DNA from: Oscillospiraceae bacterium | GTDB lineage: Bacteria > Bacillota > Clostridia > Oscillospirales > Oscillospiraceae | Length of the DNA stretch: 33,878 nt | Direction: 5' to 3' | Assembly: GCA_009784725.1 (NCBI GenBank) | Contig: WQXS01000021.1 | Location: 1 to 33,878 of the forward strand | Shown here: piece after piece, positions 28,310-32,712 of the stretch | Layout: each line of letters starts with the position of its first letter | How positions within the stretch are numbered: position 1 is the first letter of the stretch | Program-made: the position numbers and the translations under genes | Notes under the pieces: model-generated | Database searches by the model: none | What the model saw: the letters and a program-made list of their open reading frames with translations, nothing else | Told to the model about the DNA's origin: nothing

Positions 28310-28341
28310 GCAAGGGGACAAGTCCCCTTGCCTTATTTTAT
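28310..28341 (+). terminator. Intrinsic terminator after the histidine kinase gene
   Basis: GCAAGGGGAC (28310-28319), an AA loop and GTCCCCTTGC (28322-28331) form a perfect 10-bp stem followed by CTTATTTTATT. It lies between the convergent histidine kinase and ABC ATPase genes. Confidence 0.85.
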
Positions 28342-29327
28342 TGCTTCCATTTTTTGTACAGATTTGCCAGACCCTCTTCCAAAGATGTTTGTGTGAAAAT
28401 GACATCGGTAATGCCATCCATTTTGGAGAGTTTTGCAAGGAGTTTGTTTGTGTTTTGGTAATCAATTATCTGCTCATTGCCATCTGAAAACTTAACAATT
28501 GCACGTTTTGTACACTCAAGCTCATCTCGCAGCTTCGTAAAATCGCCGTCAAAGGCAACTTTTCCTTTTGATATCAGCAGGATTCTCTGCGCCATTTCCT
28601 CAAGGTCGTCCATATCATGGCTTGTAACAACAATTGTTGTACCCTCCTTTTCATTCAGCTGTTTCAGAAAAGCAATCATTTGCCGCTTTGCTTCGACATC
28701 CAACCCTAAGGTCGGTTCATCGAGTAAAATCACCTTTGGCGAATGAAGCAGCATCATTGCAACATCGGCACGCATCCGCTGACCGAGGCTCATTTCCCGT
28801 GCAAAGGTTTTAAGCAGCTCCTCCAAGCCCAAAAGCTCTGTCACCATAGCAAGATTTCTTTTGTACAGGTCATCGGGAATATCCCAGACAACCTTTTTCC
28901 ATTCAAAGCTTTGAATAACAGGATGATCCCACCATAATTCCGTCCTGTTTCCGAACAAAACCCCAAGATGCTTCATAATGGTACGCCGCTGCTTCTGCGG
29001 CGACATTGAAAGTACAGTCAACTCACCCTTTGTGGGAAGAAGCATACCCGACAGAAGTTTAATAGTTGTGCTTTTTCCTGCTCCGTTCGGGCCTGCATAT
29101 GCGACAAATTCTCCTTTTTTAACCTCAAACGAAACATCGTCAAGTGCTGTGATTATACGTTTTTCCGGTTTTATCAGGTTTCTTATTAATCCCTTCCCGG
29201 TATTGTCTCGCTGCCATTGATTAAACGTCTTTGTGACGTTTTTTATACATATTGCCGAATCCTTTTCACAATTTATGTTATCTGCGAAAACCGTACGGCA
29301 CGTATCTGTTTGAACCTTTTTGGACAT
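28338..29327 (-). CDS. ABC-2 type exporter, ATP-binding protein
   Basis: The 329-residue protein is an ABC ATPase of the type paired with ABC_6/COG3694-like permeases. It has Walker A GPNGAGKSTT, a Q-loop region (LGVLFGNRTELWWD), the signature segment EMSLGQRMRADVAMMLL, Walker B VILLDEPTLGLD and the H-loop VVTSHDMDDLEEMA, followed by a C-terminal domain of about 80 residues. It powers export by the two permeases encoded upstream. Its start overlaps the preceding permease gene by 50 bases; AGGA lies 11 bases before the ATG. The substrate is unknown; lipids, peptides or drugs are all seen in relatives. Confidence 0.93.
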   Translation of the reverse strand: MSKKVQTDTCRTVFADNINCEKDSAICIKNVTKTFNQWQRDNTGKGLIRNLIKPEKRIITALDDVSFEVKKGEFVAYAGPNGAGKSTTIKLLSGMLLPTKGELTVLSMSPQKQRRTIMKHLGVLFGNRTELWWDHPVIQSFEWKKVVWDIPDDLYKRNLAMVTELLGLEELLKTFAREMSLGQRMRADVAMMLLHSPKVILLDEPTLGLDVEAKRQMIAFLKQLNEKEGTTIVVTSHDMDDLEEMAQRILLISKGKVAFDGDFTKLRDELECTKRAIVKFSDGNEQIIDYQNTNKLLAKLSKMDGITDVIFTQTSLEEGLANLYKKWKQ

Positions 29328-30144
29328 AATATCTCAATCCTTTCCTAAAGAAATAACCTGCCGTAAGAGCCGAAAGCAGCGCAAACAGCATCGGGTAGTA
29401 TGCAAGCAGTCCTGCTTGTATTTTGTTAAGTAGTATAAGTGCGGGAAACCATGCCATCAGACCTTCGGGAAGTATAGTCATTAGCGGTATCTGCACAAAG
29501 CGGGGCATTCCAGAAAGCGGAAATGTGCTCAGAAGCCATGTTTCGTCAATGGCTGTGTATGTTATCTCCTCTGCTGCAACCGGTGCATAAAATGCAATGC
29601 TTGAAACCAAATATGCACGGGCTATGATTATTATCATAGTTGCAATCAAGTAAGCAATAAGAGTAAGCATCCAAACTGCCGAAACATTTATTTCAAGTCT
29701 GTTTATTGCTATCATCATCAAAATAACCCCGACGATGAAGTTGCTGCTGCTTGTAAATGGCGAAAATCCGTTCGTAAGCAGCTGTGTGCTCAGAGGCAAA
29801 GGCTGAATAAACATATGTTCGAGCTGCCCCCGCCCGATTATTCTGCTTACATGAATGTTGTTGGACGAACCGAAAAGCATAAAAATGCCTGTAACAAGTG
29901 TCGAATATGCCATCATGAACAGCACCTCGTCCGTTGTCATGCCGCCGATTCCGCCAAACCTTACTGCTATCAGGAAAACTCCCGAAACCATTGCAAGGTT
30001 ATTTATTACATCACCGAGAATACCCATTATTGCAAACCTTGTATCCCTGAGAAGCCATACCATATCAACCTTTGCAGCTATCATCAGCAGCTTAATTATA
30101 CGTTTAAAGGTTATTCTGTCCGTAGGTAATCTATTACCCTCCAT
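29278..30144 (-). CDS. ABC-2 type exporter permease (ABC_6 family), second
   Basis: The 288-residue protein has about six membrane helices and an N-terminal amphipathic region (FKRIIKLLMIAAKVDMVWLL) typical of ABC_6 permeases, with the motif GRGQLEHMFIQPLPL in the middle. The ATG at 30142-30144 (MEGNRL) is chosen because AAGGA lies about 11 bases upstream; the longer frame would overlap the first permease by about 150 bases. It overlaps the first permease gene by 11 bases and the ATPase gene by 50, so the three form one tight operon. Confidence 0.85.
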   Translation of the reverse strand: MEGNRLPTDRITFKRIIKLLMIAAKVDMVWLLRDTRFAIMGILGDVINNLAMVSGVFLIAVRFGGIGGMTTDEVLFMMAYSTLVTGIFMLFGSSNNIHVSRIIGRGQLEHMFIQPLPLSTQLLTNGFSPFTSSSNFIVGVILMMIAINRLEINVSAVWMLTLIAYLIATMIIIIARAYLVSSIAFYAPVAAEEITYTAIDETWLLSTFPLSGMPRFVQIPLMTILPEGLMAWFPALILLNKIQAGLLAYYPMLFALLSALTAGYFFRKGLRYYVQKGSNRYVPYGFRR

Positions 30145-30901
30145 AACTGACCATTCCTTCCTGTGATTTTTTCCATACAAGTATTGCAACCGGCCATAGA
30201 ATAATATTCCATACGACCTGCAGCAGTATGGTTTCTGGTACATTTGCCGAGCCGGTAAATATCGTAAGAGGTGCTCCTCCCAGCGATGCAAACGGCTGAT
30301 ATCTCATTATTTCCGACAGTCCGAACGGTAGCAGCCTGATTGGGATTATAGTACCCGAAAATACCGTTATTATTGCCATTCTCATTCTGCCGAGCAGCCA
30401 ATTCATATTTCTGAGTTTTATTGATAAACATGCAAAAAGCAGTTCTATCGCAAAACCCAGAGAAATGCATAAAAGCAAACTTAGCAGGAAATATGATGAT
30501 TTTGGAATCAGGTTTACCGAAAACAGCGGTGCAAGCAGTATCATCGGCAGTGAAAACATCAGCAGCTCCGGCACCCAGCCGCCTACCGTCTGTGCAGCAA
30601 GCTGTCCGAATACCGGAAGCGGACGCCCGTAGAGCTTCATCAGAACCCCCTCCGAAAGCCATCCGGATGCTGCAGTTTGAACAACCAGCATATCGGCGAG
30701 AATCGCACTGACATATGCATATGTCAGCATTTGCGGGAGAGTCATTCCAACATCAACACCCGATGTCATTACTACTCTCCAGAGGTAGACAAGTGCAATA
30801 AGTGTAAATATTTTTATGAATATGCTTGGAAGTATATATATAAGTCCGCCGTTAATCCGTTCAAGAAAGGATAACTGTGCGGTTTTTGCGTATTTTTTCA
30901 T
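30134..30901 (-). CDS. ABC-2 type exporter permease (ABC_6 family), first
   Basis: The 255-residue protein has about six membrane helices and starts MKKYAKTAQLSFLERINGGL, with LMKLYGRPLPVFGQLAAQTV as its ABC_6-type middle motif. It pairs with the second permease to form the membrane channel. AGGAG lies 8 bases before the ATG. It is the first gene of the operon and lies 48 bases after a strong terminator hairpin (30949-30984), so its expression probably depends on read-through or anti-termination from the promoter at 31324-31352. Confidence 0.88.
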   Translation of the reverse strand: MKKYAKTAQLSFLERINGGLIYILPSIFIKIFTLIALVYLWRVVMTSGVDVGMTLPQMLTYAYVSAILADMLVVQTAASGWLSEGVLMKLYGRPLPVFGQLAAQTVGGWVPELLMFSLPMILLAPLFSVNLIPKSSYFLLSLLLCISLGFAIELLFACLSIKLRNMNWLLGRMRMAIITVFSGTIIPIRLLPFGLSEIMRYQPFASLGGAPLTIFTGSANVPETILLQVVWNIILWPVAILVWKKSQEGMVSYGG

Positions 30902-30948
30902 AGTGTATGCTCCTAAAATTAATCTTCTTTTCCCATTACTCCCGTAAT

Positions 30949-30984
30949 AAAAAAACTCCCGGGTATCCGTTTGAATACCCGGGA
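30949..30984 (-). terminator. Intrinsic terminator between the Cys-rich ORF and the ABC operon (possible attenuator)
   Basis: On the minus strand TCCCGGGTAT (30984-30975) pairs with ATACCCGGGA (30966-30957) around an 8-base loop, followed by G and seven T (30955-30949). It lies 28 bases after the stop of the Cys-rich ORF and 48 bases before the first permease gene, in the same direction. Confidence 0.88.
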
Positions 30985-31011
30985 AATCTCAGCGCATTAA
31001 TTAGCCTTTAA

Positions 31012-31206
31012 TCAGGCTGTTACTTTATGCGGCAAGAGGCATTCAAAACGGTGCAAATGGGCACAATTATCCCGTGATAACTCAAAACCGGAGCAAATGA
31101 CCGGTAATTGGACGCAATTATCCCATGTTTTTGCACAGTTAAATGCAATACCGTATTCGCAATTAACGAACACATTATCACCGCTCAAAAGAAAATTTAT
31201 TTTCAA
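31012..31206 (-). CDS. Cys-rich 64-residue protein upstream of the ABC exporter
   Basis: The product is not recognised. It has six cysteines and two related segments, WDNCVQLPVICSGFE and RDNCAHLHRFEC, which are also similar at DNA level. It has no membrane helix and no standard signal peptide. TTG 31206 is a good start, because AAAGGTGGTGA (31213-31223) lies 6 bases upstream. The micro-ORF at 31213-31239 ends inside that site. A consensus promoter lies 118 bases upstream and a strong terminator 28 bases downstream. It may be a regulatory leader peptide, an exported peptide, or a chance frame in a structured leader RNA. Confidence 0.5.
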   Translation of the reverse strand: MKINFLLSGDNVFVNCEYGIAFNCAKTWDNCVQLPVICSGFELSRDNCAHLHRFECLLPHKVTA

Positions 31207-31212
31207 AACCTC

Positions 31213-31239
31213 TCACCACCTTTCTATAATATTCTCCAT
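31213..31239 (-). CDS. Eight-residue micro-ORF ending in the ribosome binding site of the Cys-rich ORF
   Basis: ATG 31239 to TGA 31213 encodes MENIIERW. AAGGA lies 10 bases before the ATG. Its TGA is the last three bases of the AAAGGTGGTGA site used by the next ORF, so translating it would alter access to that site. It is too short for any similarity argument. Confidence 0.3.
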   Translation of the reverse strand: MENIIERW

Positions 31240-31301
31240 GGTATTATATTCCTTACCTGTGGTTTTGTGAATTTTCAAACCCGCTTTTGTAATTTTTAAT
31301 T

Positions 31302-31352
31302 GGTAAATTTTTTACCGACGCAGATAATATCACAGCACAGCGAGAATGTCAA
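31302..31352 (-). promoter_or_regulatory. Consensus sigma-A promoter and start-site palindrome of the ABC exporter leader
   Basis: On the minus strand -35 TTGACA (31347-31352), a 17-base spacer and -10 TATTAT (31324-31329) are near perfect. GGTAAA-AAA-TTTACC (31302-31316) lies at about +1 to +16 and could be an operator or a 5' hairpin. The remaining gap up to the GNAT gene at 31505 shows only a loose GGATTAT/ATAATCC repeat. Confidence 0.85.
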
Positions 31353-31504: not shown

Positions 31505-32314
31505 TTATTTGCCTGTTCCCCATGGAAATTTATGTTCTTTCATGACAGCACGAATAGTCTTAATTGCATTATCGTCCATCCCCGGCAGTGATGAAATTTC
31601 ACGCTCGCTTTTTGATTTGATTACATCAAGGGTTTTAATATTTAATCCTTTTATTGCATTTGCAGCTTCGGGTTCAAGACGGGAAATTAGCACATCAACC
31701 GGTGTAAACTCGTGAAGTTTCTTTTCCGGGAAGCGTTTATCAAATTCTAGTGTTTCTTCTTCCGTTAAATCATCATATACCGAATCGATATAATACTTAC
31801 CATGAATCCCGTCTAAAGCACCCTCATAAAGCAAATAAACCATAAACGGATCAAAAACAGCTCCGTCAGATGTAGTAATACCAAACTCTGCAGCACGTCT
31901 AAAGCCGACACGGGGATAATAATCGGGAATCCCGAAAATCAAAACAGCAGGAAAACCAAGCTTTCTTCCGATTTCAAATGTATGCTGCATCAACGCTCTA
32001 CCGATTCCCCTGCTCTGAAACTCCGGTTTAACCGAGAGCGGTCCGAAAGTCAGAGTATCATGCTTAGTACCGTCTTCGGATTCAATCCAACTTTTTGTAT
32101 AGATAATATGCCCGACGATTTGCCCGTCCAGCACTGCAACGCAGTTTAGCTCCGGCACAAGTGCTTTTACACTCCGCAGTTTATGCACCAATAGGTGTTC
32201 ATTACACATAATCCGGTCTTCGTCCTCTTCCCAGAACTCCCAAAAGGCTTCCCGTGTCAGCTCTTCAACAGCATAATAATTGTCAGGGGTCTCGGGTCTA
32301 ATTATAAGATTCAT
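31505..32314 (-). CDS. GNAT N-acetyltransferase with alpha-CTD-like C-terminal tail
   Basis: The 269-residue protein has a full GNAT domain (about 1-170): FGPLSVKPEFQSRGIGRALM is the acetyl-CoA-binding motif A (core QSRGIGRAL), followed by FPAVLIFGIPDYYPRVGFRR. After about residue 205 comes a helical segment (SRLEPEAANAIKGLNIKTLD, then SEREISSLPGMDDNAIKTIR) like the helix-hairpin-helix RNA polymerase alpha C-terminal domain. The target of acetylation is unknown. ATG 32314 is chosen because AAGGAG lies 8 bases upstream; it overlaps the rsgA stop by one base, so it is translated with the rsgA 3' part. Confidence 0.88.
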   Translation of the reverse strand: MNLIIRPETPDNYYAVEELTREAFWEFWEEDEDRIMCNEHLLVHKLRSVKALVPELNCVAVLDGQIVGHIIYTKSWIESEDGTKHDTLTFGPLSVKPEFQSRGIGRALMQHTFEIGRKLGFPAVLIFGIPDYYPRVGFRRAAEFGITTSDGAVFDPFMVYLLYEGALDGIHGKYYIDSVYDDLTEEETLEFDKRFPEKKLHEFTPVDVLISRLEPEAANAIKGLNIKTLDVIKSKSEREISSLPGMDDNAIKTIRAVMKEHKFPWGTGK

Positions 32315-32712
32315 TACCATATCTCCTTATTCCTGTTGCGCCACCAAACTCCTAATTCTACGCTTTTTGCCGCCCTGTCTCTCATAGCGGCAAGCTTATC
32401 CTCAGCATACAGTGCTTCGCGCTGAAGCTTTAAGTAGCTCTCCCAACGTTCCTGAGTAAACACACCTTGCTTAATTGCCGCCTTTATTGCACATCCGGGT
32501 TCACTTTCATGTCTGCAATCTGAAAACTTACAAGTGCCCAGATGTTCTTCAACATCTGCAAACACGTCCGATACCGAGGATTGAAGTGTTCCTTCCGTGC
32601 TTTCCCACATGCCGATTTCCCGCATTCCGGGGGTGTCTATTATAAACGCACCGCAGGGAAGTGTAAACATCTCACGGTGAGTTTGTATGACGGCCCCTTG
32701 CGTCATCCTCAC
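32314..32712 (-). CDS. RsgA C-terminal part (second frame of the frameshifted gene)
   Basis: The frame is open from 32712 and real family sequence begins at THREMFTLPCGAFIIDTPGM, containing the G3 motif DTPG. It then has the zinc site C-x4-C-x-H-x5-C in CKFSDCRHESEPGC and a helical end. Alone it lacks the P-loop and the OB fold and cannot be a working GTPase. The ATG-like start MRMTQGAV is out of family. Its stop TAA overlaps the GNAT ATG by one base. Confidence 0.7.
   Translation of the reverse strand: MRMTQGAVIQTHREMFTLPCGAFIIDTPGMREIGMWESTEGTLQSSVSDVFADVEEHLGTCKFSDCRHESEPGCAIKAAIKQGVFTQERWESYLKLQREALYAEDKLAAMRDRAAKSVELGVWWRNRNKEIW

Follow-up and report, generated by a model that had tools for sequence, protein, structure and literature searches.

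A probable ribosome-mediated transcription attenuator with a long leader ORF, found ahead of ABC-2 exporter and ABC-F genes in Clostridia

How does transcription reach three exporter genes that lie beyond a strong intrinsic terminator? The question is raised by a stretch of 33,878 nucleotides from an Oscillospiraceae bacterium (contig WQXS01000021.1; "the window" hereafter), in which a GNAT gene (31505-32320) lies upstream of a leader that, on the minus strand, extends from a promoter to a terminator and leads into the three exporter genes. A first-pass annotation had proposed that the leader senses ribosomes and attenuates transcription, and all of the features that it named are found in the sequence, on the minus strand. 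The arrangement described below points, with good probability, to ribosome-mediated attenuation of transcription in a leader whose ORF is long.

Layout of the locus and its promoters

The exporter genes and the terminator that precedes them are as follows.

28338..29327, minus strand: exporter ATPase, an ABC ATPase (PF00005)
about 29278..30144, minus strand: exporter permease 2, ABC2_membrane_6 (PF06182)
30134..30901, minus strand: exporter permease 1, 255 aa
30949..30983, minus strand: intrinsic terminator with an 11-bp stem, a 4-nt loop, and a T-rich tail

A PF06182 permease, an ABC ATPase, and a partner permease in a single gene run mark an ABC-2 type exporter, in agreement with the earlier assignment of three exporter genes beyond the terminator. 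The start of permease 2 is taken from its overlap with permease 1 and from relatives. Permease 1 matches no Pfam or NCBIfam family at E 0.001, and a sequence search for a relative of solved structure gave none. The terminator, previously described as strong, is present as a hairpin at 30983-30958 followed by AG and seven T residues, and the exporter's Shine-Dalgarno sequence (SD) sits outside it. A separate promoter directly before position 30901, together with unchanged read-through, had been named as an observation that would speak against attenuation; no minus-strand promoter-like site lies between the terminator and 30901.

Upstream of the terminator, the leader contains the following features.

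31324..31352, minus strand: upstream promoter-like site TTGACA-17-TATTAT (11/12 match, with TG before the -10 element)
31302..31316, either strand: palindrome GGTAAA-AAA-TTTACC, at the start site of the upstream promoter
31243..31271, minus strand: likely main promoter TTCACA-17-TATAAT (11/12 match), so placed from its position relative to the SD
31213..31239, minus strand: 8-codon micro-ORF ATGGAGAATATTATAGAAAGGTGGTGA, present and not conserved
31209..31224, minus strand: extended SD GAAAGGTGGTGAGAGG, strongly conserved among 16 leaders
31012..31206, minus strand: leader ORF of 64 codons with a TTG start

The near-perfect promoter of the first-pass annotation is the upstream site, at 31352-31324. 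It lies outside the stretch that matches a relative from the same genus (L002; query positions 125-402 of 451). The site at 31271-31243 is probably the main promoter, since 10 of 16 leaders, the window included, have a match of at least 10/12 at 14-21 nt before the SD, a count that carries no chance control. Weaker matches occur at the same place in L033 (9/12) and L004 (8/12), with no good one in L006, L007, L010, or L014. Promoter-like sites overall are no more numerous than chance would give (8 found; expectation 5.3, sd 2.4). Transcription from the site at 31271-31243 would start near 31236.

This start bears on the micro-ORF, whose ATG occupies 31239-31237. Because the transcript would begin near 31236, the micro-ORF is probably not translated. 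The first-pass annotation was right about the string itself, at 31239-31213, and the role that it proposed for the 8-codon ORF is not supported, since the ORF is unconserved and its ATG lies at or upstream of the likely transcript 5′ end; we rejected it as a sensor on these grounds. In-frame upstream ORFs that end in the TGA of the SD, within 90 bases, occur in 5 of 16 leaders (5-21 codons). They have no common length or sequence among the 16 leaders, and L010 has no TGA there.

The palindrome, also noted before at the start site of the upstream promoter, is present at 31316-31302. It occurs once in the window's genome, and none of the 15 related leaders has it within 200 bases upstream of the SD; with a single genomic site and none in the other leaders, it was rejected as the operator of a regulon.

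Relatives of the leader and its ORF

The first-pass annotation had proposed a search for the same leader in other genomes, and 15 relatives were found. A DNA search of 99 genomes, the window's own included, returned only the window and L002. A permease search of genome contigs returned nine loci, eight of them at 47-74% identity; the ninth, L011, a distant locus from Acidobacteria, was left out of later analysis. The leader precedes the exporter in seven of the eight (L003, L004, and L006-L010) and is absent in L005. A peptide profile gave six matches in 300 genomes of the family, of which three are true leaders (the window, L013, and L014), and six matches in 391 genomes of the class, of which five are leaders (the window, L027, L028, L029, and L030). 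A search for the SD pattern in 394 genomes of the order gave nine matches, five of them leaders (the window, three known loci, and L026). Duplicates with an identical leader peptide were counted once (L023 with L004, L024 with L008, L025 with L006, and L027 with L007), and eight matches were judged false by inspection (L015-L020, L022, and L031). The leader is rare, with true matches in 3 of 300 and 5 of 391 genomes. The 16 distinct leaders comprise 12 before the exporter (counting L013, whose permease is incomplete), three before an ABC-F gene (L014, L026, and L033), and one orphan (L028).

The leader is not obligatory for the exporter, because L005, L065, L066, and L067 have the exporter without it. 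The last three are among seven strong exporter matches from the genomes of the class, which gave 20 matches in all. By the same test the other 13, which are weaker, show no leader, with marginal profile scores at L070 and L075 left uncounted. An ABC-F search matched 337 of 394 genomes of the order at E 1e-60. Among the 30 ABC-F loci listed, some with upstream stretches truncated by contig ends, only L033 has the leader. In all, the leader precedes ABC-F in genomes G009 (L014), G065 (L026), and G460 (L033). Against the NCBIfam cut-off of 380 for ribosomal-protection-like ABC-F proteins, L033 scores 432 and L067 scores 414, while the L014 protein, incomplete in its locus, scores 362.5. The matched parts of the L026 and L033 proteins are 74% and 65% identical, respectively, to that of L014. 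Since the leader precedes the exporter in some genomes and ABC-F in others, either effector can sit behind it.

Three further loci show other arrangements. The window genome has an ABC-F gene of its own (L032:1-1500), 83% identical to that of L014 and lacking the leader. In G665 (L067:1-3762), an ABC-F gene runs 4 bases into the exporter operon, and no leader separates the two; the ABC-F product is 52% identical to the ABC-F protein behind the leader in G009 (L014). The orphan leader (L028:1484-1820) has the SD, the ORF, the terminator, and the SD pairing described below, and there is no exporter or ABC-F gene among the ORFs listed for the 1.4 kb downstream of it. The next long ORF there may be hisH.

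An ORF of 42-73 codons begins just after the SD in 16 of 16 leaders. For L013, L014, and L028-L030, which came from the peptide profile, the ORF is necessarily open; the others were found through DNA, the SD, or a neighboring gene. pN is lower than pS in 115 of 120 leader pairs (pairs that are not independent of one another), and pN/pS is 0.72 in frame vs 1.07 and 0.94 when the frame is shifted. Each of the two alternative frames contains 1-9 stops. This pattern, with the conserved SD, would fit a translated leader ORF. The first-pass annotation had held that its reading would fail if neither ORF were conserved: conservation is lacking for the small ORF and present for the 64-codon ORF.

The earlier description of the 64-codon ORF as Cys-rich is accurate: the ORF, which starts with TTG, has 6 Cys. 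The peptide is weakly conserved among leaders apart from the pattern W..CALLPV..FGL.RD..AH..R.ECLSP, and the interior of the ORF varies in length and is poorly conserved. The number of Cys residues ranges from 1 to 7 per peptide among the 16. These properties bear on two alternatives. In the first, slowing at Cys or other codons would induce export of a related metabolite, as in an amino-acid attenuator. The architecture would be the same, and 6 Cys in 64 codons would suit it; the variable number of Cys residues, an alignment with no common codon run, and the ABC-F partners, which are not metabolic, make this very unlikely. In the second, which the first-pass annotation had also raised, the Cys-rich peptide would be secreted by the exporter as its substrate, and the terminator would only set a ratio. 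The genes adjoin, and the peptide is conserved to some degree. Against this, the number of Cys residues varies, the antiterminator described below overlaps the codons of the peptide, and the same peptide family precedes ABC-F in three genomes (90-97% complete) that have no exporter match at E 1e-15. We therefore set aside the proposal of a secreted substrate as extremely improbable.

Several minor features of the ORF and SD were also seen. The two NC..FE segments noted before are real direct DNA repeats, 82% identical, at 31055-31076 and 31106-31127. They form tandem GGGATAATTGYGYCC units within the ORF, and two such units can be seen by eye in many leaders; they are candidates for small hairpins or for a peptide repeat. 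A likeness of GGGATAA to 23S rRNA was considered and then dropped. Two of the leader peptides were searched in plasmids, with no match. Lastly, 12 viral contigs (L082-L093) carry the SD followed by ATG ahead of short ORFs of other kinds, and none of these contigs has the leader peptide, as judged by eye. Because the same pattern precedes these unrelated viral ORFs, the leader SD alone is not diagnostic.

Predicted mutually exclusive pairings in the leader RNA

Two predicted pairings involve the end of the leader ORF. One, which we call P1, joins it to the SD; the other, the antiterminator, joins it to the terminator.

31206..31217, minus strand: P1 5′ strand GGTGAGAGGTTT, complementary to the ORF end (11/12 pairs)
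31031..31042, minus strand: P1 3′ strand ATGCCTCTTGCC, identified by a count of complementarity
31037..31051, minus strand: antiterminator 5′ strand CCGTTTTGAATGCCT, at the same place in 15 of 16 leaders and overlapping the P1 3′ strand
30967..30980, minus strand: antiterminator 3′ strand GGGTATTCAAACGG, the 5′ arm and loop of the terminator, identified by duplex search and covariation

The terminators of the 16 leaders were read by eye from the sequences. An intrinsic terminator stands before the gene position in 16 of 16, at 16-30 nt after the ORF stop in 15 and at 91 nt in L028. In the alignment, 83.7% of 166 terminator cells are paired, and cells changed on both sides number 7, against 3.0 in shuffles (12 of 500 shuffles reach it). 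When the pairing is slid by two columns, it yields 9 and 10 such cells, more than the true version. The whole leader folds more stably than 100 of 100 shuffles (z -5.4), and the terminator accounts for much of this; the 131-nt ORF end alone is no more stable than its shuffles (z -0.2).

To look for an antiterminator, the final 75 nt of every ORF, counting the stop codon, were paired with the 5′ arm and loop of the terminator. All leaders except L030, whose duplex is weak, have their best duplex 38-46 nt upstream of the ORF end (15 of 16). The native duplex beats at least 290 of 300 simple shuffles of the ORF end in 11 of 16 leaders, with weaker results for L004, L007, L010, L013, and L030. When terminators were swapped among leaders, only 5 of 16 leaders paired best with the terminator that they carry themselves (it ranked 9th for L008 and 12th for L030). 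Swapped terminators often pair well because exporter leaders have much alike sequence there.

Covariation, counted for the named antiterminator pairing on a MAFFT alignment of the 16 leaders, gives further support. Paired cells make up 80.7% of 223, compared with 27-49% when the pairing is slid by 1-3 columns. Both-sided changes occupy 16 cells vs 6.3 in shuffles (0 of 500 reach it) and fall on 8 pairs vs 4.6 (16 of 500), with a covariation score of 0.309 vs 0.234 (0 of 500). The number of further pair types, 20, is not above shuffles (18.3; 108 of 500). A recount with another tie rule gave 14 both-sided cells in 7 of 16 leaders: six in L013, three in L028, and one each in L007, L008, L014, L030, and L033. 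The changes in L014 and L033 fall in another register than the one found by the duplex search. The clearest compensatory pair, 28-170, is A-U in 10 leaders and G-C in L007, L008, L013, and L028. Among the ABC-F leaders, the pairing is that of GATTGTTTTG with CAAAACAATC (L014), one base off the alignment register. Sequence and covariation thus agree on an antiterminator that overlaps the ORF and excludes the terminator.

P1 was an unplanned result: GGTGAGAGGTAT, which extends the SD, has its complement in ATGCCTCTCGCC at the ORF end. In fixed blocks, each of the 16 leaders forms 8-12 of the 12 pairs, for 91% of 192 cells, and sliding the blocks reduces this to 38-56%. Covariation is modest, with 11 of 1,000 shuffles reaching the number of paired cells and 80 of 1,000 the number of both-sided cells, and whole-row swaps give a similar result. 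Modest covariation is expected because one strand is the SD. The letters ATGCCT belong to both P1 and the antiterminator, which are mutually exclusive, and part of the conserved peptide pattern is dictated by these two pairings. On complementarity, P1 is predicted to act both as a sequestration of the SD and as an anti-antiterminator. A further "inner" pairing, of codons ~17-28 with the same ORF end, was rejected as not general, being limited to L004, L006, L009, L010, and L013.

These elements and their exclusive pairings make up the architecture of an attenuator, and the core idea of the first-pass annotation, attenuation by ribosome position, gains support from the terminator, the compensating antiterminator, the anti-antiterminator made by the SD, the conservation of the reading frame, and the presence of the leader before ABC-F genes as well. 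If the terminator were bound by a protein (an antitermination factor), or if attenuation were constitutive, with no role for the ribosome, the terminator and antiterminator alone would suffice; the SD, the ORF, and P1 would then be left unexplained, and we regard this as highly improbable.

The order of events that we propose uses four segments: the SD stretch (segment 1), the ORF end (segment 2), the 5′ arm and loop of the terminator (segment 3), and the 3′ arm that completes the terminator stem (segment 4). Segment 2 would pair either with segment 1, hiding the leader SD, or with segment 3, forming the antiterminator; segments 3 and 4 would form the terminator. With no ribosome, segment 1 would capture segment 2, and the terminator would form. 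During free translation, a ribosome on the last ~15 codons would cover segment 2, again allowing the terminator. A ribosome on the stop codon would leave the antiterminator strand uncovered, such that the off state would depend on timing; this is the least certain step. A ribosome held by a drug at the SD, the start, or the early codons would mask segment 1, segment 2 would take the nascent segment 3, and RNA polymerase would read through into the exporter genes. The co-transcriptional order is inferred, as is the role of ribosome-targeting drugs both as inducers and as cargo of the exporter.

Fold computations on the 16 leaders, with the ribosome footprint masked and segment 4 not yet transcribed, are consistent with this order. 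The median number of antiterminator pairs is 0.8 without a ribosome, 10.4 with a ribosome at the start, 8.3 at codon 12, 0.5 at mid-ORF, 0.5 at the stop, and 0 with segment 2 covered. Leaders with at least 6 antiterminator pairs number 6, 9, 10, 6, 6, and 0 of 16, respectively. L004, L008, L009, and L013 have near zero pairs under the start mask. The window forms 4.3 pairs without a ribosome, 11.3 with the start masked, 0 with segment 2 covered, and 11.8 with the stop masked, the last because its antiterminator strand, ~26-41 nt before the ORF end, stays free. The off state cannot be put down to free translation alone, because the stop mask leaves the antiterminator free in 6 of the 16 leaders, the window among them. 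At equilibrium, with the full RNA, the terminator is preferred nearly everywhere (medians 0.97-0.98), the exceptions being L029 (0.34) and L014 (0.68) with the start masked. Because the terminator wins at equilibrium, the switch would need co-transcriptional timing. The modeled folds support the pairing order, short of proof.

A ligand-binding riboswitch would account for some of these observations differently: P1 would be the closing helix of a structured domain, the 3′ strand of that domain would compete with the antiterminator, and the ORF would be incidental. The overlap of P1 and antiterminator is riboswitch-like, an inner GGG..TGYGCCC repeat is retained in many leaders (by eye), and the stop-codon mask leaves the off state under free translation unexplained. 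The interior, however, is poorly conserved over 42-73 codons, pN is below pS in frame and not in the shifted frames, the SD is strongly conserved, Rfam gives no match at gathering scores, and the gene partners are an exporter and ABC-F. We consider a riboswitch unlikely and prefer attenuation by ribosome position.

Likely input and comparison with known systems

What would such an attenuator sense? Ribosome-targeting drugs are the likeliest input by analogy, because ABC-F leaders of like logic (PMC10201436) and bmrB (PMC4191407) respond to them, according to parts of those reports. The exchange of ABC-F and exporter behind one leader, together with an operon that holds both, suggests that the exporter, too, would answer ribosome-targeting drugs. 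One possible reading, which we hold only tentatively, is that the leader is a portable drug-sensing element of Clostridia that uses its own SD as the anti-antiterminator and stands before two unrelated effectors, the exporter being one for ribosome-targeting drugs or otherwise related to stalled ribosomes. If so, the signal read may be the dwell of the ribosome at the start, a point on which we are equally tentative.

The closest known system, as far as parts of the report on it describe (Reilman 2014, PMC4191407), is bmrB-bmrCD of Bacillus subtilis, in which a 53-amino-acid leader ORF precedes ABC exporter genes, with a terminator, an antiterminator, and a predicted anti-antiterminator, and in which induction by lincomycin, erythromycin, and chloramphenicol requires translation of the ORF. 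The likeness lies in the leader ORF before an ABC exporter and in the three alternative structures. In the sections of that report on the leader, the bmrB terminator lies inside the ORF, whereas the present one follows the stop; bmr is additionally under AbrB control; and the present leader differs in that its SD is itself the anti-antiterminator strand and in that it also serves ABC-F genes. In the cplR leader of Clostridioides difficile, stalling on a uORF gates a terminator vs an antiterminator ahead of an ABC-F gene, and the uORF is hidden in a 5′ hairpin; the uORFs of vmlR, vmlR2, and lsaA are named alongside it (parts of PMC10201436). All three have counterparts here, the stalling a proposed one. 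The uORF consensuses given there span 3-4 residues, compared with ORFs of 42-73 codons here, and the cplR terminator also hides the SD of the gene, whereas the present exporter SD lies outside the terminator. Lastly, the hflXr leader rli80 of Listeria monocytogenes, as portrayed in portions of its report (PMC6310831), resembles the present one in an anti-antiterminator region that overlaps the leader ORF and in transcription attenuation that depends on the ribosome, as proposed here; it differs in its 14-residue ORF with an RLR stalling motif and in the type of gene controlled.

The working parts of the leader are thus known one by one. New, as far as searched, are the long shared ORF family, the SD as a competing strand, and the use of one leader by both an ABC-2 exporter and ABC-F. 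We presume that bmrCD and the present exporter belong to different ABC types. In the open PMC literature, searched by title and abstract with subscription papers outside the scope, no paper on the leader was found, and the COG names of the exporter had no match. Rfam has 0 matches in the window at gathering scores; the best candidate below threshold, NsiR1 (E 0.0036), lies on the terminator hairpin, and the reading of the leader as a known Rfam element was rejected.

A likely trigger, ribosome inhibition, can be assigned in this way to the exporter. Together with its terminator, the leader offers a handle by which to look for inducible genes of drug response in those Clostridia that are represented mostly by metagenome-assembled genomes, and the exchange of effectors behind one sensor is a natural experiment on the purpose of ribosome-stall sensors. 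Ahead of a related ABC-F gene in G358 (L034:1210-1500, with the gene starting at 1501) lie a short ORF and a hairpin, both unlike those of the present leader; this ORF has an SD of its own, and the two may represent a further leader family.
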